From assembly GCA_029884335.1 (NCBI GenBank), contig JAOUIA010000001.1:1-64000 (forward strand): a stretch of 64,000 nucleotides of DNA. Direction: 5' to 3'. This document shows positions 15,472 through 36,948 of the stretch, one piece after another (the first letter of the stretch is position 1; each line of letters opens with the position of its first letter). Source of the stretch: Betaproteobacteria bacterium. GTDB lineage: Bacteria > Pseudomonadota > Gammaproteobacteria > Burkholderiales > Casimicrobiaceae. The notes below the pieces were generated by a model. The model was given only the letters and a program-made list of their open reading frames with translations. It had not been told where the DNA came from and ran no database searches. The translations under genes were made by a program, and so were the position numbers.

Positions 15472-15560
15472 CCGAAAGCAGGGTCAGACCCGACTTCCCG
15501 TCGGCGACGCTCCGGCCCGCGAGACCATTGCGGGAAAGTCGAGCCTGACCCTACTTTCCG
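15472..15560. repeat. Palindromic pair of the GGGTCAGACTCGACTTT family
   Basis: Forward arm about 15474-15500 and inverted arm about 15531-15560, separated by 30 nt. It occupies the guaC-purL gap and ends directly before a TATAAT hexamer. Same family as 6061-6252, 30351-30614 and 51702-51757. Confidence 0.85.
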
Positions 15561-28177: not shown

Positions 28178-29152
28178 ATGCAACGCAGGAACGTTCTGGC
28201 CGGGCTGGCTGCAGCTGCCACGCTCGCCCTGCCGATGACCGTCGGCGCGCAGGCCTGGCCCGCGAAGCCGATCCGCCTCGTCGTCGGCTTCCCGCCCGGC
28301 GGCGGCATCGATTTCACCGCTCGCCTGATGGCGCAGCACCTCTCGGAGGGGCTGGGCCAGCAGGTCGTCGTCGAGAACAGGCCCGGGGCGGCGGGGGCGC
28401 AGGCGGCCGCGGAGGTCGCGCGCGCGGCGCCGGACGGCTACACGCTGATCCTCGCCAACATCGGCCCGTTCGCGCTGGTTCCCTCGATGATGGCGAAGCC
28501 GCCCTACGATCCGGTGCGGGAGTTCACGGCGGTCAACCAGCTGGTGTCGACGTACTTCGTCGCTGCCATCCCGGCGAGCCTCCCGGCCAGGTCGATGAAC
28601 GAGTTCTTCGCCTGGGCGAAGGCCAACGACGGGAAGGTGAACTTTGCCTCCGGCGGCAATGCCTCGATCACCCACTTGAACGGCGAGCTCGCGAACCAGG
28701 TTGCCGGCACGAAGATGGTGCACGTGCCGTACAAGGGCTCGGCGCCGGCGATCACCGACCTGATCGCCGGGCAGACGCACATCCTGATCGACGTCGGCAA
28801 CGTGATCGTGCCGCACGTCAAGAGCGGCAAGCTGCGCGCCATCGCCGTCACGTCCGCCGAGCGCGACCCGCTGTTGCCCGACGTGCCGACGATGCGCGAG
28901 TCCGGTTACCCGCAGCTCGAGACGGCGGGGTGGCAGGGCATCGTCGGCCCGGCCGGCATGCCGCGCGAGGTCGTCACCCGGCTGTCGGGGGAAATCCGCA
29001 AGGTGCTCGCGAAGCCGGAGGTGCGCGAGAAGCTCGCAGCTGCCGGCACGCCGGTCACCGACCGCGGGCCGGACGAGTTCGCCGCGTTCATCCGCGACGA
29101 GAACCAGCGCTGGCTGCCGGTCATCAGGGCGAGCGGCGCGAGGATCGAGTAG
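28178..29152 (+). CDS. Bug/TctC-family tripartite tricarboxylate receptor
   Basis: 324 aa. Signal peptide about 1-24 ending VGAQA with a Q-R-R-N motif near the start. Mature features: KPIRLVVGFPPGGGIDFTARLMA, VENRPGAAG, RAAPDGYTLILANIG, MVHVPYKGSAPAITDLIAGQTHILIDV. ATG at 28178; a TTG two codons earlier is better spaced from GGAGG and is an alternative. Divergent from tctBA, so it may share that permease. Confidence 0.94.
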   Translation: MQRRNVLAGLAAAATLALPMTVGAQAWPAKPIRLVVGFPPGGGIDFTARLMAQHLSEGLGQQVVVENRPGAAGAQAAAEVARAAPDGYTLILANIGPFALVPSMMAKPPYDPVREFTAVNQLVSTYFVAAIPASLPARSMNEFFAWAKANDGKVNFASGGNASITHLNGELANQVAGTKMVHVPYKGSAPAITDLIAGQTHILIDVGNVIVPHVKSGKLRAIAVTSAERDPLLPDVPTMRESGYPQLETAGWQGIVGPAGMPREVVTRLSGEIRKVLAKPEVREKLAAAGTPVTDRGPDEFAAFIRDENQRWLPVIRASGARIE

Positions 29153-30380
29153 GGGCCTCGCCGTCCGGCGAGTCGTGGTGCCGGCCTGTCACGTAGACGG
29201 TGCCGGTGAACGACGCGACGAGATCGCCCTCGCCGCGCGCCCCGCGGCGCACCTCGATGCGATAGGTCGCGAGCCGCCGGGTGCGGCTCACTTCGGAGGC
29301 GCGCGCCGCCAGGCGCTCGCCCTCGCGCGCCGCCGCGTGGTAGCTGATGTGCACCTCGATCCCGGCGGCGACGCGGCCGTGCGAGTTCGACGCGAGGCCG
29401 AATGCGGTGTCGGCCAGCGCGAACAGCGCGCCGCCGTGGCAGGTGCCGTTGAAGTTGAGGTGCTCGGCGCCGACCGTCATCGCCACCTCGGCGTGGCCGG
29501 CGCCGGCATCCACGAGTTCGATGCGGCAGTTGCGCGCGAACGCGTCGCGCGCGGCGAGCGCCGCCGTCCGCGCGCGTTCGTCCGCGGGAGCGGGTTCCGG
29601 GCGTGCGAGCCGGCGGCCCCGGCCGCAGGCCTGCGCGTGCGCGTCCGCGGCGTCGAGCAGCGCGGCCACGCCTTCGCCGCGCGCGGCCGAGGTGAGCAGA
29701 ACCGGCACCTTCCAGCCGCCGCGCCTGGCGCGCAGCGCGAGCATTCCCTCGAGGTCGCGCACCGTCGCGGTCGCGAGCGCGCTGTCCCCCTTGCTGACCA
29801 CGAGCAGGTCGGCGATCTCGAGGATGCCGGCCTTGATTGCCTGCACGTCGTCGCCGAGGCCGGGCGGGCAGACGACCGCGCAGGTGTCCGCCAGCGCCGC
29901 GATCGCCACTTCCGACTGGCCGGCGCCGACGGTCTCCACGATCACCGGGTCGTAGCCCGCGGCGTCGAGCAGGTCGACGATGCGCCGCGTGGTGCGCGCG
30001 AGCCCGCCGGCGTGACCGCGCGAGGCGAGCGAGCGCACGAACACGTTCTCGGCGGCGGCCTGCTCGCTCATGCGGATGCGATCGCCGAGGACCGCGCCGC
30101 CGGACAGCGGGCTCGACGGGTCGACGGCAACCACGGCGATGCGCCTGCCGCGCTTCGTGCACTCGGCGAGCAGCGCGGCGATCAGCGTCGACTTGCCCGC
30201 GCCCGGCGGTCCGGTGATCCCGATGACGTGTGCACGGCCGGCCTCCGTCGCAAGCGCGTCGGCGAGCGCCGCGGCGCCCGGCATCTCGTTTTCCAGCGCC
30301 GTGATCGCCCGCGCGATGGCCGCGCGGTCGCCGCGCCGGACCGCATCGGCGGAAAGCAGGGTCAGACTCGACTTTTCCAT
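29124..30380 (-). CDS. MeaB-type GTPase fused to PaaI-like hotdog thioesterase
   Basis: 418 aa, two domains. Residues 1-255 are a MeaB/ArgK G3E GTPase, the chaperone that loads and protects B12 acyl-CoA mutases. It has Walker A GPPGAGKS (57-64), AVDPSSPLSGG (85-95) and ETVGAGQSE (149-157), but the base-specificity motif is SKGD (196-199) instead of NKxD. Residues about 275-400 are a PaaI-like thioesterase with the active Asn and HGG in NFNGTCHGG (309-317) and Asp324 in LADTAF. The usual MeaB C-terminal dimerisation arm is missing. The ATG at 30380 lies inside a dispersed repeat copy. The 3' end overlaps the opposing Bug gene by 29 bp. Confidence 0.9.
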   Translation of the reverse strand: MEKSSLTLLSADAVRRGDRAAIARAITALENEMPGAAALADALATEAGRAHVIGITGPPGAGKSTLIAALLAECTKRGRRIAVVAVDPSSPLSGGAVLGDRIRMSEQAAAENVFVRSLASRGHAGGLARTTRRIVDLLDAAGYDPVIVETVGAGQSEVAIAALADTCAVVCPPGLGDDVQAIKAGILEIADLLVVSKGDSALATATVRDLEGMLALRARRGGWKVPVLLTSAARGEGVAALLDAADAHAQACGRGRRLARPEPAPADERARTAALAARDAFARNCRIELVDAGAGHAEVAMTVGAEHLNFNGTCHGGALFALADTAFGLASNSHGRVAAGIEVHISYHAAAREGERLAARASEVSRTRRLATYRIEVRRGARGEGDLVASFTGTVYVTGRHHDSPDGEAPTRSSRRSP

Positions 30381-30614
30381 GGGGTTGCTGCCGGCTGCTC
30401 CGGAAAGTGGGGTCAGACTCGACTTTTCAATGGGGTTGCTTTCGGCAAATGGAAAGTAGGGTCAGACTCGACTTTTCAATGGGGTTGCTTTCGGCAAGCT
30501 CCATGCGCGCCGGGAAAGTCGAGTCTGACCCTACTTTTCGAATTCGGGGTCAGACTCCGAGTGCCCTGCCGGTTGCATGCGGGCCAGGAAAGTCGAGTCT
30601 GACCCTACTTTTCG
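30351..30614. repeat. Array of GGGTCAGACTCGACTTT-family repeats
   Basis: Three direct copies start at 30351, 30402 and 30451 (unit about 50 nt including a shared ATGGGGTTGCT tail). Inverted copies lie at about 30512-30539 and 30587-30614, with a partial forward copy near 30545. The array separates the mutase from the MeaB fusion and reaches the first 10 codons of the latter. Confidence 0.9.
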
Positions 30615-30615
30615 C

Positions 30616-32295
30616 TCAGACGACGACGAGCGGCTGGCCGAAGCCGAGCTCGCGGCGCAGCGTCGCGCAGATCTCGCCGTGCGTACAGCCCGCGGCCGCG
30701 GCGTCCACGACCGCGCCGAACGTGTTGCCGCTGCCTTGCGCCGCGCGGGCGAGGGCGGAGAGCGCGCGATCGGCGTCCGCCTGGCTGCGCTGCTCCTTCC
30801 AGCGCGCGAAGTCGTCGCGGTGGGCCTGCATGAGCGCCGGATCGGGCCTGGGAAGCGCGGGCCGCGCGCTTTCGTCCTCCTCGACGGCGTACTTGTTGAC
30901 GCCGACGACCGTCTGCTCGCCGGACTCGACGCGCGCCTGGAACGCGCGCGCCGACTCGCCGATGCGGCGCTGCACCCATCCCGACTGCACGGCAGCGAAC
31001 ATGCCGCCCTGCGCGTCGACCTCGTCCATGACCTCGGCGATCCTCGCCTCCATCGCGTCGGTCAGCGACTCGACGTAGTACGAGCCGCCGAGCGGGTCGA
31101 TCACGTCGGTCAGGTGCGCCTCCTCGCGCAGGATGTTCTGCGTCGCCACGGCGATGCGCGCGCCGAACTGCGTGGGGCAGGACAGCACTTCGTCGTAGGC
31201 GTCGGTGTGCAGCGACTGCAGCCCGCCGAAGATGCCGGCGATCGCCTGAGCGGTGACTCGCGCGATGTTGTTGAGCGGCTGCTGGCGGGTGAGGTCGACG
31301 CCGGAGGTCTGCGCGTGGAACTTGAAGCGCCACGAGCGCGGGTCGCGCGCGCCGAAGCGCTCGCGCACCACCCGCTGCCAGATGCGCCGCCCGGCGCGGA
31401 ACTTGGCGACCTCCTCGAAGAACGAGAGCGAGATGTCGAAGAAGAACGTGAAGCGGGGCAGGAAGGCGTCGGGGGCGAGGCCGGCGGCGACGCAGTCACC
31501 GGCGTACTGGATCGCGGTCGACAGCGTGAACGCCATCGCCTCGGCCGGCGTGGCGCCGGCCTGCTGCATGTGCTGGCCGACCACCGACACCGGGTTCCAC
31601 TTCGGCGCGTGCGCGTTGCACCACGCGACGTGGTCGACCAGCACGCGCCGCGAGCCCGGCAGCGCGAGACGGAAGAACATGTGGTTGGCGACGTAGTGCG
31701 AGATGTAGTCGCTCTGGTTGCTGGTGCCGCTCACGAGCCTCCAGTCGACGCCGCGCCGCTTCGCGGTGGCCAGCATGAACGCGAGCAGCGTGAACGGCAG
31801 CGGGTCGTTGAGCGAGCAGGACGTCTTCGCGAGGTCCACGCCGGCGAGGCAGGCGTCCATGTGGTCGGCCGTGTTCGCGACGACGCCGCAGGTACCCAGC
31901 AGCTCCGGGTACACCTGGTCCATGTCGAAGCCGCGGTACACCGAGTTGCAGGGGATGAGCGAAACCGCGGTGGCGCCCTTGTCGAGAATGTCGAGCAGGC
32001 GCGCGTTGTAGTCGCGGGGTGTGCCCAGCCCGATGAGCTGCCGCTGCGTCCACGTGCGGCCGCGGTGCATCGTCGCGTAGATGCCGCGCGTGTAGGGCGG
32101 CTCGCCGGGAAAGCCGAGATCGGCGTCGTAGCGGGAGGCGTCGACGTCGAGCGGCGTGTAAAGCGGCTTGACGGCAATCCCCGAGCGGTTGCGGACCTCG
32201 CGCTCGCCGGGCAGCTGCGCGGCGTACTCGGCGGACCAGCGCACGTGGGCCTCCGCGGTCGACGCGGGGTTGGCAGTGGGCAGCGGCTTGTTCAT
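30616..32295 (-). CDS. Divergent B12-dependent acyl-CoA mutase, large (substrate) subunit
   Basis: 559 aa, starting [12 protein letters not shown] 13 nt after the small subunit. The core matches the methylmalonyl-CoA mutase TIM barrel: [12 protein letters not shown] (75-86), the active His242 ([10 protein letters not shown]), [41 protein letters not shown] and [12 protein letters not shown]. Substrate-setting positions differ. The Tyr89 site of methylmalonyl-CoA mutase is Leu87, the Arg207 site is Asn204, and the usual FDLPTxxGYDSDHP segment is replaced by [13 protein letters not shown] (114-126). The cobalamin domain is on the separate small subunit, as in isobutyryl- and 2-hydroxyisobutyryl-CoA mutases. 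Substrate unknown. Confidence 0.9.
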
Positions 32296-32308
32296 TCTCG
32301 CGTCCTCG

Positions 32309-32725
32309 TCAGGCGGCGAACTTGGCGGCGCGCGAGCGCGCGGCAAGCTCGCGGACGTACGTCGCGATGTCCGCGAGCGACGTCCCGGGGTGGAACACGC
32401 GCGCCACGCCCGCGTCGAGCAGCGCGCGCTCGTCGTCGTCCGGCACGATGCCGCCGACGATCACTCCGACCTCGCTCAGGCCCGCGGCGCGCAGCGCTTC
32501 CATGAGCCGCGGGACGATCAGGTGGTCGGTCGCCAGCGACGAGACGCCGATCACGTCGACGTCCTCCTCCTGCGCGAGCTTCACGACGGCGGCGATCTCC
32601 TGCCAGGGCGGCGTGTAGACCACCTCCATGCCGGCGTCGCGCAGGTGCGCCGCGACGATGCGGCTGCCGCGGTCGTGGCCGTCGAGGCCGATCTTGGTGA
32701 CGAGGACCTTGGGGCGGATGTCCAT
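32309..32725 (-). CDS. Cobalamin-binding small subunit of acyl-CoA mutase
   Basis: 138 aa, the length of IcmB/HcmB-type subunits. DGHDRG (residues 15-20) contains the His that replaces the lower axial ligand of B12; SSLATDH and VGGIVPDDD form the rest of the Rossmann-like B12 site. The common SLAAGH motif reads SLATDH here. Operon order is TetR, small subunit, large subunit, MeaB-thioesterase. Confidence 0.92.
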
Positions 32726-32765: not shown

Positions 32766-33338
32766 TCAGAGGGTGGAGCCGTGCAGGAGGCGCACGAACC
32801 GGCGCGCGATGGCGGCCGGGCTGTCCTGACCGGAGCGGTACCACGTCTGCGACCAGTTGAGCGCGCCCAGCAGCATGAGGCGCAGCGCGCGGCGGTCGGC
32901 CTTGCGCGCGAGCGGCAACGCGTCGACGGCGCGGGCGAACAGCCGCTCGTAGCCGTTGCGGAGCTCCGCGAGCCGCCGGGCCACGTCCGGCACGTCGTCC
33001 GGGCGCACGCGGATCACCACCTGGCCGTAGTCGCTGTCGTCGAGCAGCGCGCTCAGGTGTGCCGCGCACACGCGCTCGAGGCGCTCCCACGGCTCGCCCG
33101 GCGCGCGCAGCGCCTCCTCCACGGCGGCGGTGATGCGCTTGACGCCCTCCGCGTACACGGCGACGAGCAGGTCCTCCTTCGACGCGAAGTGGTAGTACAG
33201 CGACCCCGCGAGCATCCCGGAGTCGGCGGCGATGTCGCGCATCGACGTCACGGCGTAGCCGCGCTCGCGGAACAGCCGCGCCGCGGCGTCGAGCACGAGC
33301 GGCAGGCGGTTGTCGGCGCGGGGGGCGGCGGCGGGCAT
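32766..33338 (-). CDS. TetR-family transcriptional regulator
   Basis: 190 aa. The N-terminal helix-turn-helix spans about 12-58 (VLDAAARLFRERGY, MRDIAADSGMLAGSLYYHFASKEDLLVAVY). The C-terminal ligand domain resembles those of acyl-CoA-responsive regulators. It is the first gene of the mutase operon and diverges from a Bug gene; a palindrome in the shared intergenic region is the likely operator. I infer repression relieved by a pathway acyl-CoA. Confidence 0.92.
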   Translation of the reverse strand: MPAAAPRADNRLPLVLDAAARLFRERGYAVTSMRDIAADSGMLAGSLYYHFASKEDLLVAVYAEGVKRITAAVEEALRAPGEPWERLERVCAAHLSALLDDSDYGQVVIRVRPDDVPDVARRLAELRNGYERLFARAVDALPLARKADRRALRLMLLGALNWSQTWYRSGQDSPAAIARRFVRLLHGSTL

Positions 33339-33455: not shown

Positions 33456-34424
33456 ATGATGCCGATCCGCCTCGCCGCGGCGTTCGTCGCCGCCCTCGCC
33501 ATCGCCGGCCCCGCCATGGGACAGGCGTTCCCCAGCAAGCCGATCCGCCTGATCGTCCCGTTCCCGCCGGGCGGCGGCACCGACATCGTCTCGCGCCACG
33601 TGGCCAAGCAGTTGTCGGAGTCGAGCGGCTGGACGATCGTCGTCGAGAACAAGGCCGGCGCCGGCGGCACGCTGGGGCTGACCGAGGCTGCGCGCGCGGC
33701 GCCGGACGGCTACACGGTCGTCATGGGGCAGGCCGACAACATGGTGGTCGCCCCGGCGCTCCAGAAGAACCTGGCGATCAATCCCGTCAAGGACCTGACG
33801 CCGGTGATGCAGGTCGCGGCCTCGCCGTTCCTGTTCATGTCGGCGGCGGGGTCGAAGTACGCGAACCTCAACGACGTCATCGCCGAGGCGAAGGCGGCTC
33901 CCGGCAAGGTGTCCTACGGCTCGGCGGGCAGCGGCACGTTCACCCACCTCGTGATGGAGCTGCTGCAGCAGCGGGGCGGCTTCACGATGGTGCACGTGCC
34001 GTACAAGGGCGCGTCGCCCGCGATGGCCGACGTGATCGGCGGTCACATCCCGATGGCCGCGCTGTCCATCGGTTCGGGCATGTCCGGCATCCAGGGCGGC
34101 AAGCTGCGCGGGCTCGCGGTGACCTCGCTCAAGCGCAGCCCGGCGCTGCCCGACGTTCCCACGCTCGACGAGCTGGGCTTCAAGGGCTTCGAAGCCAACG
34201 GCTGGCTCGGCATCCTCGTGCCCAACGGCACGCCGCCGGACGTCGTCGCGCGGCTGAACGCCGAGCTCGCCAAGGCCATGCAGAGCGCCGAGCTGCGCAA
34301 GACGCTGCTCGCCACGGGCATCGAGGCCCGCACGGGCACGCCGCAGGAGTTCGGGGCGCTGATCGCGCGCGACACGGGGACGTGGCACAAGATCGTCGAG
34401 ACGGCGGGCATCAAGGCCGAGTGA
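33456..34424 (+). CDS. Bug/TctC-family tripartite tricarboxylate receptor
   Basis: 322 aa. Signal peptide about 1-24 (ending AMGQA). Mature motifs: KPIRLIVPFPPGGGTDIVSRHVA, VENKAGAGG, RAAPDGYTVVMGQ, MVHVPYKGASPAMADVIGGHIPM. GGAGGA precedes two adjacent ATG codons (33456, 33459). First gene downstream of the operator-bearing promoter and probably delivers the substrate of the acyl-CoA locus. No tctA/tctB pair accompanies it. Confidence 0.94.
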   Translation: MMPIRLAAAFVAALAIAGPAMGQAFPSKPIRLIVPFPPGGGTDIVSRHVAKQLSESSGWTIVVENKAGAGGTLGLTEAARAAPDGYTVVMGQADNMVVAPALQKNLAINPVKDLTPVMQVAASPFLFMSAAGSKYANLNDVIAEAKAAPGKVSYGSAGSGTFTHLVMELLQQRGGFTMVHVPYKGASPAMADVIGGHIPMAALSIGSGMSGIQGGKLRGLAVTSLKRSPALPDVPTLDELGFKGFEANGWLGILVPNGTPPDVVARLNAELAKAMQSAELRKTLLATGIEARTGTPQEFGALIARDTGTWHKIVETAGIKAE

Positions 34425-34425
34425 T

Positions 34426-34731
34426 GGCCCTCACCCCCGGCCCCTCTCCCGCCTGCCGGCGGGCGAGGGGAGTGTCGGCCCTCACCCCCGGCCCCTCTCC
34501 CGGCATTCGCCGGGCGAGGGGAGTGTCGGCCCTCACCCCCGGCCCCTCTCCCGGCATTCGCCGGGCGAGGGGAGTGTCGGCCCTCACCCCCGGCCCCTCT
34601 CCCGCCTGCCGGCGGGCGAGGGGAGTGTCGGCCCTCACCCCCGGCCCCTCTCCCGGCATTCGCCGGGCGAGGGGAGTGTCGGCCCTCACCCCCGGCCCCT
34701 CTCCCGCCTGCCGGCGCGCGAGGGGAGGGTT
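34426..34731. repeat. Six-copy 51-bp tandem repeat with two alternating core types
   Basis: Units start at 34426, 34477, 34528, 34579, 34630 and 34681. All share the frame GGCCCTCACCCCCGGCCCCT and a GGCGAGGGGAGTGTC-like end. The 12-nt cores are of type A (CCTGCCGGCGGG) or B (GCATTCGCCGGG) in the order A-B-B-A-B-A, and each is a small palindrome. Reading through in one frame gives repeated LTPGPSP peptides, which I regard as non-coding. Confidence 0.9.
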
Positions 34732-34735
34732 CGAA

Positions 34736-34762
34736 CCCTCTCCCCCGGCACGGGGGAGAGGG
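34736..34762. repeat. Hairpin of the CCCTCTCCCCCG family
   Basis: Arms CCCTCTCCCCCG (34736-34747) and CGGGGGAGAGGG (34751-34762) with a GCA loop, closing the tandem array before the CoA-transferase gene. Two related hairpins are at 44991-45088. Confidence 0.8.
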
Positions 34763-34800
34763 CAGGGTGAGGGGGCCGCCAACCGCTGAGCAGCCGCAAG

Positions 34801-35979
34801 ATGCAGCTCGACGGCATCCGCGTGGTCGACCTCTCCCGGATCCTCTCCGGGCCGTTCTGCTCGATGTTCCTCGCCGACATGGGCGCGGAGGTCGTCAAGA
34901 TCGAGGACGTCGACGAGGGCGACCCGATCCGCCGCCAGGGCGAGCTGCGCGACGGCTTCTCCACCTACTTCGCCTCGTACAACCGCAACAAGAAGTCGCT
35001 CACGCTCGACCTGCGCAACCCCGACGGCATGGCGGTGCTGCGCAAGCTGATCGCCACCGCCGACGTCGTGCTGAACAACTTCCGGCCCGGCGTGATGGAC
35101 CGCATGGGCCTCTCCCGCGCCGAGCTCGAGCGCCTGCGGCCGGGGATCGTCAGCTGCCACATCACCGGATTCGGCCTCGACGGGCCGTACCGGGATCGCC
35201 CGGCATTCGACTTCATCGCGCAGGCGATGAGCGGCTTCATGAGCGTCAACGGCGCCGAGGGCGAGCCGCCGCTCAGGGCCGCGCCGCCGATCACCGACCT
35301 CGTCGCCGGCGCGTATGCCGCGATGGGGATCTGCGCGGCGCTCGTGCGCCGCCAGCGCACCGGGCAGGGGGAAGAGGTCGCCGCGAGCCTGACCGACGGC
35401 ATGGTGAGCATGCTGTCGTTCCTCGCCACGAACTACTTCGCGACGGGCAGGCTGCCGGTGCGCACCGGCAACGACCACGCGCTGGTCGCGCCGTACGGCC
35501 TGTTCGACGCCGCCGACGGGCAGGTGGCGATCGCGCCTTCCAACGACCAGGTCTACTTCAAGCTGCTCGACGCGCTGGGTCTCGCCGAGCTGCGCGAGCA
35601 CCCCGAGTTCCGCACCAACGCCGACCGCTTCGCGCGCCGCGCGGCGATCAACGCGCGCATCAACGAGCGCACGCGCGAGCGGCCGATCGCGCACTGGCTC
35701 GACGTGCTGAACGGCGCCGGCGTGCCCTGCGGTCGCGTGCTGAACGTGCGCGAAGTGTTCGACGATCCGCAGATCCGCCACCAGCGGATGCGCGTGACGA
35801 TCGATATCCCGCGCCATGGGCCGTGCGACGTGCTCGGCTTTCCCATCAAGTTCACCGACGATCCCTGCCGCGTGCACCGGCCGCCCCCCGATCTCGGCGA
35901 GCACACCGACGCGCTGCTCGCCGAGCTGGGCTACGGGCGCGAGGCGATCGGGCGCTTGCGGCAGTCACGGGCGATCTGA
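34801..35979 (+). CDS. Class III CoA-transferase (CaiB/BaiF family)
   Basis: 392 aa. Opens with LDGIRVVDLSRILSGPFCSMFLADMGAEVVKIED (about 3-36) and has NRNKKSLTLDLRNPDG (about 61-76), NNFRPGVMDRMG and ITGFGLDGPYRDRPAFDFIAQAMSG, with the candidate nucleophile Asp in the last segment. Transfers CoA between carboxylic acids. It follows the Bug gene and the tandem array and precedes an HMG-CoA-lyase-like gene; it probably activates the imported acid. Confidence 0.93.
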   Translation: MQLDGIRVVDLSRILSGPFCSMFLADMGAEVVKIEDVDEGDPIRRQGELRDGFSTYFASYNRNKKSLTLDLRNPDGMAVLRKLIATADVVLNNFRPGVMDRMGLSRAELERLRPGIVSCHITGFGLDGPYRDRPAFDFIAQAMSGFMSVNGAEGEPPLRAAPPITDLVAGAYAAMGICAALVRRQRTGQGEEVAASLTDGMVSMLSFLATNYFATGRLPVRTGNDHALVAPYGLFDAADGQVAIAPSNDQVYFKLLDALGLAELREHPEFRTNADRFARRAAINARINERTRERPIAHWLDVLNGAGVPCGRVLNVREVFDDPQIRHQRMRVTIDIPRHGPCDVLGFPIKFTDDPCRVHRPPPDLGEHTDALLAELGYGREAIGRLRQSRAI

Positions 35980-35991
35980 ACGGAGGCGCGC

Positions 35992-36948
35992 ATGGACTTC
36001 GCACGGGCGGAGGCGAACAGGCCGAAGGTCACGGTGACCGAAGTGGGAACGCGCGACGGCTTCCAGGCCGAGCCGGTGTTCATCCCCACCGCGATCAAGG
36101 CCGAGGTGATCGACGCGCTCATCGGCGCCGGGGTGCGGCACGTCGAGGCGACGTCGTTCGTGAGCCCGCGCGCCGTCCCGCAGCTCGCCGACGCCCACGA
36201 GGTGCTGGCGCTCCTGCAGCGCAGAGCCGAAGCGCACGTCGCCGCGCTGGTGCCCAACGCCCGGGGCGCGGAGCGGGCGCTGGGGGCGGGCGTGGAGGAG
36301 ATGGTCTGCTTCGTCTCGGCGAGCGAGACGCACAACGGCAAGAATCTCAATGCGACCATTGCGCAATCGCTTGCCAACGTGGGCGAGGTCGCGCAGGTGG
36401 CGGCCGGGCGCCCGGTCGCGCTGCGCGGCGCCGTGGCCTGCGCGTTCGGCTGCCCGTTCGAGGGCGACGTCGCCGTGGGCGCCGTGCTGCGCATCGCGGA
36501 GGCCTACGCGGCGCTGGGCATCGACCGCCTCACGCTGGGCGACACGACGGGAATGGCCACGCCGCCGATCGTGACGCGCGTGCTTCAGGCCCTAGGCGAG
36601 CGGCTGCCGCGCATGCGCGTGGCGCTGCACTTCCACAACACGCGTGGCGCGGGGCTCGCCAACGTGCTGGTCGGGCTCGACCTCGGCGTGCGCGAGTTCG
36701 AGTCGTCGATCGGGGGGCTGGGCGGATGCCCGTTCGCGCCCGGCGCGACGGGCAACGTCTGCACCGAGGACCTCGTCTACCTGCTGGAGGAGTCCGGCTT
36801 CGACACGGGTGTGGACCTTGACGCGCTGATCCGGGTGGCGCAGCGTGTCGAGGCGATCGTGGGCCGGGCGCTGCCGGGGCAGGTGATGAAGGCCGGCCCG
36901 CGGCTCCGGCGTTACGATCCGGCCGCCGCGCGCCGCGCGACGGGGTAG
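35992..36948 (+). CDS. Hydroxymethylglutaryl-CoA lyase-like enzyme
   Basis: 318 aa DRE-TIM metallolyase. EVGTRDGFQAE (about 17-27) carries the Arg/Asp pair, and HFHNTRGAG holds metal-binding His residues. GGLGGCPFAPGATGNVCTEDLVYLL (about 238-262) is the HMGL loop with the active Cys. It cleaves 3-hydroxy-3-methylglutaryl-CoA or related acyl-CoA esters to acetyl-CoA plus a keto product. Twelve nt after the CoA-transferase, suggesting sequential action on the same CoA ester. Confidence 0.92.
   Translation: MDFARAEANRPKVTVTEVGTRDGFQAEPVFIPTAIKAEVIDALIGAGVRHVEATSFVSPRAVPQLADAHEVLALLQRRAEAHVAALVPNARGAERALGAGVEEMVCFVSASETHNGKNLNATIAQSLANVGEVAQVAAGRPVALRGAVACAFGCPFEGDVAVGAVLRIAEAYAALGIDRLTLGDTTGMATPPIVTRVLQALGERLPRMRVALHFHNTRGAGLANVLVGLDLGVREFESSIGGLGGCPFAPGATGNVCTEDLVYLLEESGFDTGVDLDALIRVAQRVEAIVGRALPGQVMKAGPRLRRYDPAAARRATG

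Follow-up and report, generated by a model that had tools for sequence, protein, structure and literature searches.

Why should the chaperone of a B12-dependent mutase end in a thioesterase? The question is raised by a single gene within the first 64,000 nucleotides of contig JAOUIA010000001.1 (assembly GCA_029884335.1), a stretch of DNA from a bacterium of the Casimicrobiaceae that is here called the window, in which the G domain of MeaB, a GTP-dependent chaperone, is joined in one frame to a hotdog thioesterase of the PaaI type. Our analyses indicate that the fusion is real and conserved. The chaperone and the type of mutase operon are both familiar, and it is the domain architecture that is apparently undescribed; no account of a MeaB-thioesterase fusion was found in the open-licence PMC papers searched. 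The reading that we favour, with a probability of roughly 0.55, is that the protein would be a hotdog-dimerised MeaB chaperone of a mutase resembling isovaleryl-CoA/pivalyl-CoA mutase (PCM), whose thioesterase half would clear a dead-end acyl-CoA; the activity, the oligomeric state and the substrate we infer. The gene and its product are laid out as follows:

29124-30380, minus strand: MeaB/hotdog fusion, an open reading frame (ORF) of 418 amino acids with an ATG start and no internal stops
Fusion residues about 11-254: MeaB G domain
Linker of about 15 residues
Fusion residues about 268-402: PaaI-type hotdog thioesterase

A sequence-only reading of the window had proposed that these two domains share one frame, and this was borne out by Pfam, by NCBIfam and by an AlphaFold2 model. 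PF03308 (MeaB) matches fusion residues 22-254 with 283.4 bits against a cut-off of 23.1, and PF03061 (4HBT) matches residues 311-383 with 58.8 bits; among NCBIfam models, TIGR00750 (MeaB, residues 17-252) scores 294.9 bits, above its cut-off of 240.75, and TIGR00369 (hotdog, residues 287-396) scores 79.6, above a cut-off of 36.6. The longer MeaB equivalog NF006958 leaves the fusion below its cut-off (239 versus 329). The AlphaFold2 model, built from 36 aligned fusion proteins that include the window's, comprises two confidently predicted domains (mean pLDDT 85.5), for which Foldseek returned MeaB and PaaI matches. The model aligns with the solved MeaB 8dpb over 262 residues at 2.3 Å (Z 30.3), and with the solved entries of M. 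extorquens MeaB at 36-42% identity and Z of about 27-30.

The same architecture recurs across genomes. Loci with a mutase of at least 58% identity and a MeaB gene within 4 kb numbered 71, or 65 once six exact duplicates were removed; 46 of these operons are fused, eight have a separate thioesterase gene following, ten lack a PaaI-type gene (that is, within 2.5 kb behind MeaB) and one is cut off. The share of 46 in 65 is biased, since most of the operons entered by likeness to the fusion; nor are all 65 independent, because near-identical rows (L108, L109, L110) were retained, and the relatives of the fusion were the best 80 of at least 357, so that architectures were not evenly surveyed. Within the genus, 21 further genomes gave nine near full-length matches to the fusion at 62-75% identity and a tenth that ends at a contig end, all ten in frame. 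A further sample was chosen on the mutase only, from draws at class, order and phylum level together with the six of 13 plasmid records at 60% identity or more (the other seven, below 60%, were excluded), and its 16 members divide into five fused, six split, three without the thioesterase and two cut by contig ends:

Fused: own genome, G014, G667, G153, Diaphorobacter
Split: G046, G530, G420, Xanthobacter, Sulfitobacter, Pseudosulfitobacter (the last by record annotation)
Without thioesterase: G724, Sphingobium, Roseovarius
Cut by contig ends: G147; G047 (contig stops just inside MeaB)

The mutase itself is rare, occurring at the limits used in four of 369 genomes of the class and seven of 399 of the order (own genome included), and a phylum-wide draw of 398 genomes yielded it in the own genome only.

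The chaperone half departs from a standard MeaB, its G domain being placed in a new architecture. As the sequence-only reading had maintained, the C-terminal arm by which MeaB dimerises is absent: the fusion covers positions 1-240 of the 273 in the PF03308 profile, leaving the C-terminal part unmatched, and the fusion model lacks the three C-terminal helices (257-283, 287-297 and 303-320) that close the model of a split-type MeaB (L110). In 17 of 18 unfused MeaBs the G-domain match is followed by 57-91 amino acids, the remaining one (L044) having a 184-residue tail with a nitroreductase-like match and its thioesterase as a separate gene behind; fused proteins have a tail of 140-207 amino acids with a hotdog in 45 of 46 cases, the 46th ending at a contig end. 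Arm-length tail and helices being missing from the fusions, the thioesterase stands at the former position of the arm. Passages of PMC9974510 state that the active state of MeaB needs contacts across the dimer together with a swing of one protomer through about 180 degrees, and they list as cross-dimer residues D92, R108, E154, Q160, D182, Q185 and K188, and also D105. The window's counterparts, mapped through an inferred constant offset of five at which the letters agree, are D87, R103, E149, Q155, D177, Q180, K183 and D100, and each is identical in all 46 fusions, so that the armless chaperone still seems built to pair. The G4 motif reads SKGD at residues 196-199 in place of the canonical NKxD. 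The sequence-only reading had this right, but the motif is unremarkable here: the first residue is Thr in 23, Ser in 15 and Asn in eight of the 46 fusions, K and D being kept in all, and SKCD stands at this site in a second MeaB of the genome, one that has the arm. Unfused MeaBs have Asn in 18 of 18, a contrast with the fusions that is confounded by ancestry. GTPase and adenosylcobalamin-loading functions are predicted for the fused G domain.

In the thioesterase half, the active-site residues that had been called intact are indeed present (N309, H315-G316-G317 and D324), and they are conserved across the fusions: N309 and G317 in 45 of 46, H315, G316 and D324 in all 46, which argues that the thioesterase is no relic. 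N309 and D324 are 15 residues apart, the same spacing that separates N33 of Thermus thermophilus PaaI from its D48. N33 is named in the title of entry 2dsl. Fusion residues 278-398 align with T. thermophilus PaaI 1j1y over 116 residues at 0.7 Å (Z 21.0), and Foldseek matched the hotdog model to the T. thermophilus enzyme at 0.9 Å, TM 0.96 and 47% identity. By fold and by its N/HGG/D residues the domain belongs to the hotdog thioesterase class (TIGR00369/4HBT), and with 111.3 bits it falls below the 118.9-bit cut-off of the PaaI equivalog TIGR02286. Hotdog thioesterases are dimers with the active site at the dimer interface. In three operons the mutase and MeaB genes are separated by thioesterase genes of another family, 4HBT_2, one each in L101 and L150 and two in L152:

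L101:5570-5986: 4HBT_2 gene of a pcm-type operon
L150:2108-2488: 4HBT_2 gene, assigned by 61% identity to the L101 copy
L152:6768-7661, minus strand: pair of 4HBT_2 genes, in addition to a separate PaaI-type gene

L101 and L150 are two of the ten operons without a PaaI-type gene; L142 and L145 duplicate L150 and L152 over a shorter length, and no other 4HBT_2 match was found at E 1e-5 in the window or in loci L034-L155. That different hotdog families recur in one operon type argues that hydrolysis matters there.

The origin of the fusion is suggested by its split relatives. On plasmid pXAUT01 of Xanthobacter autotrophicus Py2 the gene order is TetR, PcmB-like, PcmA-like, a 329-amino-acid MeaB and PaaD, with the meaB stop and the PaaD start overlapping by 4 nt. 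Seven operons, of which three are near-identical, combine a MeaB that still has a tail of arm length with a thioesterase encoded by the following gene; such a split ORF is found in Xanthobacter, in Roseobacters (L108-L110, L116), in L115 and in L152, and the thioesterase directly follows meaB in the split operons of the L108 type, L115, L134 and L152. Since a thioesterase of the same kind is the next gene in relatives, the fusion would join two members of one operon, and we regard a same-operon fusion with replacement of the arm as very likely from these comparisons. Nor is the thioesterase a foreign addition: Xanthobacter, Roseobacters and others encode it right behind meaB within one operon. 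Homologues encoded as separate genes, which the sequence-only reading had held would undo the fusion, do exist outside the fused lineages; they explain where the fusion came from and leave it standing. Quick trees without bootstrap require at least four changes of fusion state for the mutase and seven for MeaB, two being forced in each case (by strong branches in the mutase tree), while the hotdog tree shows a single change in none of 200 bootstrap trees and still does not reject one origin (p-AU 0.287). Two operons from metagenome-assembled genomes (MAGs) labelled Desulfovibrionaceae and Propionibacterium (L085, L086) group with Hydrogenophaga/Polaromonas, indicating either misbinned contigs or transfer.

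Which mutase the fused chaperone serves can be judged from the genes immediately upstream:

30616-32298, minus strand: large substrate-binding subunit of a split B12 acyl-CoA mutase, PcmA-like (PF01642, 558.6 bits); probable start ATG at 32298, longest ORF extending to 32346
32309-32725, minus strand: small B12-binding subunit, PcmB-like (PF02310)
32766-33338, minus strand: TetR-family regulator, first gene of the run (PF00440)

This minus-strand order of TetR, small subunit, large subunit and fusion recurs in most mutase-bearing loci, and the two subunits being separate ORFs (30616-32298 and 32309-32725), the system is not a fused isobutyryl-CoA mutase (IcmF). On pXAUT01, Xaut_5043 shares 63% identity with the large subunit and Xaut_5044 shares 71% with the small one; an isovaleryl-CoA/pivalyl-CoA mutase from X. 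autotrophicus Py2 was reportedly described by Kitanishi, Cracan and Banerjee (2015). Three signature positions, Tyr89 and Arg207 of methylmalonyl-CoA mutase (MCM) and Asp117 of 2-hydroxyisobutyryl-CoA mutase (HCM), were mapped through PDB alignments. The window's large subunit has L104, I131 and N221 (longest-ORF numbering); among readable operon rows Leu occurs in 62 of 62, Ile in 52 or Leu in 10 of 62, and Asn in 63 of 63, and Xaut_5043 has the same L and N in its motifs. Control mutases have Tyr/Ala/Arg in five cases (MCM type) and Ile/Asp/Gln in seven (HCM type), one of the latter from the window's genome, and the general-acid His is present in every readable operon row and in 12 of 12 controls. 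A220 was considered as counterpart of MCM Arg207 and discarded when the alignment gave N221, both residues being invariant among readable rows. An MCM is rejected by the missing Tyr/Arg signature, and an HCM by the missing Ile/Asp/Gln, although 4r3u is the best PDB match. 'The mutase' of the sequence-only reading can accordingly be narrowed, by sequence, to the pivalyl-CoA mutase type, and its substrate is quite probably pivalyl- or isovaleryl-CoA or a close branched analogue. The window's genome also encodes a second mutase, of HCM type (Ile/Asp/Gln), accompanied by a MeaB of its own that has the arm (G000:C118, L051). On a plasmid of Sphingobium sp. YC-XJ3 (L155:14962-29010) the pcm-type operon, from TetR to MeaB, is duplicated, the two copies being separated by IS6100 and a further transposase.

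Beyond the operon, two genes on the opposite strand bear on the pathway:

34801-35979, plus strand: class III CoA-transferase (CaiB-like), divergent (PF02515)
35992-36948, plus strand: protein of the 3-hydroxy-3-methylglutaryl-CoA (HMG-CoA) lyase family, adjoining the CoA-transferase (NF004283, 354.9 bits, cut-off 246)

A complete homologue of the CoA-transferase lies near the operon in L034, L036 and L037, and a partial one at the edge of the stretch in L038 and L040; the lyase-family gene, whose six PDB matches among those listed are all HMG-CoA lyases, is also found in L034, L036 and L037. In the Roseobacter Sulfitobacter the split operon is followed by genes for TetR, carboxyltransferase, crotonase, biotin carboxylase and acyl-CoA dehydrogenase, and the carboxyltransferase scores 588 bits to the methylcrotonyl-CoA carboxylase of P. 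aeruginosa versus 250-260 to the propionyl-CoA carboxylases 1vrg and 3n6r. Contig C61 of the window's genome holds a like set (beta 53%, alpha 47%, hydratase 43%, two dehydrogenases 35%, lyase 43%). In content these genes recall the leucine/isovalerate route, which is what a mutase producing isovaleryl-CoA would call for, single scores being no proof. In Xanthobacter and Diaphorobacter an AMP-ligase and a Liv-type ABC transporter are present as well; when the neighbours of 44 fused loci were clustered, few were conserved beyond the operon, with AMP-ligase, Liv-type ABC transporter and acyl-CoA dehydrogenase present in part. A tandem repeat of GVSALTPGPSP-like units occupies positions 34382-34789 of the window, within an ORF flanked by a TctC-like gene on one side and the CoA-transferase gene on the other.

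We propose that the fused protein would act as a GTP-dependent B12 chaperone of an isovaleryl-CoA/pivalyl-CoA-mutase-like enzyme, which would interconvert pivalyl-CoA and isovaleryl-CoA, or closely related branched analogues. A hotdog dimer or tetramer would assume the role of the lost arm in holding the chaperone together, and a flexible linker would leave the G domains free for the rotation by which MeaB wedges the mutase open. Because the fused G domain seems built to pair and hotdogs dimerise, the hotdog is a natural new tether, and we think it likely that it replaces the dimerisation of the arm. The thioesterase would hydrolyse a dead-end acyl-CoA of the pathway and so free CoA, the likeliest being the quaternary pivalyl-CoA or an intermediate trapped upon loss of B12. 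We put an active thioesterase that clears such a dead end at slightly better than even odds; pivalyl-CoA is the first candidate because its quaternary carbon blocks beta-oxidation, and its being the main substrate is a tentative suggestion. Both roles raised in the sequence-only reading, the clearing of stray acyl-CoA and hotdog oligomerisation for assembly, survive here, the comparative data favouring a combination of the two.

A number of observations weigh against this proposal. The activity of both halves is predicted, and the assignment of the mutase leans on Xaut_5043/5044, which we presume to be the characterised isovaleryl-CoA/pivalyl-CoA mutase. Eight of the 65 operons have neither a PaaI-type thioesterase (within 2.5 kb behind MeaB) nor a 4HBT_2 one, and the mutase and MeaB trees imply different minimum numbers of changes of fusion state. 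The Sulfitobacter carboxyltransferase scores higher (596-612 bits) against the acetyl-/propionyl-CoA carboxylase or plain carboxyl transferase chains 4q0g, 9tps and 9yx0 than against the methylcrotonyl enzyme, the biotin carboxylase finds methylcrotonyl-CoA carboxylase alpha (516 bits) barely above propionyl alpha (503), and the acyl-CoA dehydrogenase is closer to general acyl-CoA dehydrogenases (310 bits) than to isovaleryl-CoA dehydrogenases (229-231). Carboxylase-type genes clearly adjoin the operon only in Roseobacters, and biotin carboxylase matches of 48-50% near four fused loci are unspecific. Finally, a MeaB from a Rhizobacter MAG (L089:6001-7179) has a hotdog-like tail in which HGG is lost and the Asp kept; it yielded no Pfam thioesterase match, and no mutase match was found in about 6 kb on either side.

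Among the rival explanations, a frame joined in assembly or a decaying gene draws its one support from the beginning of the window's copy, where codons 2-7 (EKSSLT) fall within a dispersed repeat whose 17-base core has 19 exact copies in the genome and whose flank, also repeated when read by eye, contains the start codon. The repeat forms an array between the mutase gene and the fusion:

30359-30605: GGGTCAGACTCGACTTTTC repeat array of five copies, three exact on the plus strand and two with one mismatch on the minus strand; the copy at 30359 overlaps the opening codons of the fusion gene

The window's fusion protein is thus atypical at its N-terminus. Besides this array, two weaker copies of the dispersed GTCAGACTCGACTTTTC repeat, which occurs 19 times exactly in the genome, lie at 15481-15551. 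A joining error, which the sequence-only reading had itself named as the result that would defeat it, was looked for and is ruled out by the ten same-genus genomes and by 46 of 65 operons in frame; with catalytic and G motifs kept in those 46, and with the same join in the RefSeq plasmid record of Diaphorobacter sp. HDW4B, chance or error is refuted for the family, and as an explanation its probability is negligible.

More serious is the suggestion that the hotdog is mainly a dimerisation module in place of the arm, with catalysis incidental. The loss of the arm in the fusions, the established dimerisation of hotdog enzymes, the L089 tail without HGG and the filling of the arm position elsewhere by nitroreductase-like (L044) or XdhC/CoxI (L093) domains all speak for it; we nevertheless consider it unlikely, given that catalytic residues are retained in 45-46 of 46 fusions, that seven operons place a separate thioesterase beside an arm-length MeaB, where it is unneeded for dimerisation, and that thioesterases of another family recur in the operon. 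It is possible, if doubtful, that the thioesterase acts on an up- or downstream pathway intermediate that has no connection with the mutase reaction, much as PaaI serves phenylacetate breakdown, the fusion merely fixing co-expression. The PaaI-type fold is consistent with this, as are the next genes in Xanthobacter (a phenylacetate-CoA-ligase-like protein, AMP-ligase and ABC transporter) and the ease with which overlapping genes could fuse; against it, the partner in the fusion is the chaperone and neither a ligase nor a dehydrogenase, and the thioesterase directly follows meaB in the split operons already listed. A more ambitious version of our own proposal is a GTP-gated editing chaperone, in which MeaB domains would wedge the mutase open and eject damaged B12 while the thioesterase cuts the acyl-CoA stranded or released, coupling cofactor repair to substrate clearance, and in which the arm position would be an exchangeable socket for hotdog, nitroreductase-like or XdhC domains; this we regard as a long shot.

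Other tails do occur at the arm position. L044:8523-9788 (minus strand), in a pcm-type operon, has a nitroreductase-like C-terminal stretch (PF00881, E 4.8e-7) on MeaB and a separate hotdog gene behind. In L093:5944-7098, L090:5998-7110 and similar genes of L091-L099 the MeaB G domain is followed in frame by an XdhC/CoxI-like domain (PF02625, E 1.6e-25 in L093; the others by eye). The L093 fusion lies beside genes that by eye resemble molybdenum hydroxylase, no mutase match was found in the L090-L099 stretches, and on the quick MeaB tree these proteins fall near the hotdog-fused MeaBs with weak support; their MeaB domain has apparently moved to the maturation of another metalloenzyme. L046:8254-9474 has a weak XdhC-Rossmann-like tail (PF13478, E 1.8e-4, below cut-off) and L045 is alike by eye, both belonging to the same family as the window's genome.

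The use that MeaB-type chaperones make of their dimer is recent knowledge, and passages of PMC9974510 raise the question of how fused IcmF copes with rearrangement of the MeaB dimer. A natural protein in which the arm is swapped for an unrelated dimerising enzyme, with the listed cross-dimer residues all kept, offers a ready test of the arm as a mere tether. It also ties a thioesterase to mutases of the pivalyl-CoA type, which are of interest for breaking down acids with quaternary carbons, and it corrects annotation: the Diaphorobacter sp. HDW4B plasmid, which follows the Xanthobacter gene order and supplied the single fused gene found in an annotated record, labels that gene just 'MeaB'.

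Set beside known systems, the fusion shares with MeaB/MMAA, the chaperone of methylmalonyl-CoA mutase, a G domain with P-loop, switch regions and cross-dimer residues and a gene that adjoins a B12 mutase, and differs in having a PaaI-type thioesterase in place of the C-terminal dimerisation helices and in serving, by our assignment, a PCM-type mutase. IcmF, in the portions of PMC10481361 and PMC9974510 that concern it, likewise places a MeaB-type domain in a natural fusion and also turns over pivalyl-/isovaleryl-CoA; it joins the chaperone to the mutase, whereas the window joins the chaperone to a thioesterase and keeps the mutase as two separate subunits. PaaI, a hydroxyphenylacetyl-CoA thioesterase, has the same hotdog fold and N/HGG/D residues at 47% identity (T. 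thermophilus), the fusion differing in its score below the PaaI equivalog cut-off and in its attachment to a G protein. MeaH, the HCM chaperone described in part of PMC7176365, is also a MeaB homologue beside a split mutase; the HCM-type system of the window's genome (C118) differs from the fusion locus in its Ile/Asp/Gln signature and arm-type MeaB. Closest of all is the X. autotrophicus Py2 operon Xaut_5045-5041, which has the same order of TetR, small subunit, large subunit, MeaB and hotdog, with identities to the window of 71% (small), 63% (large), 59% (MeaB) and 49% (hotdog), and in which the arm-tailed MeaB and the hotdog are two genes where the window has one.

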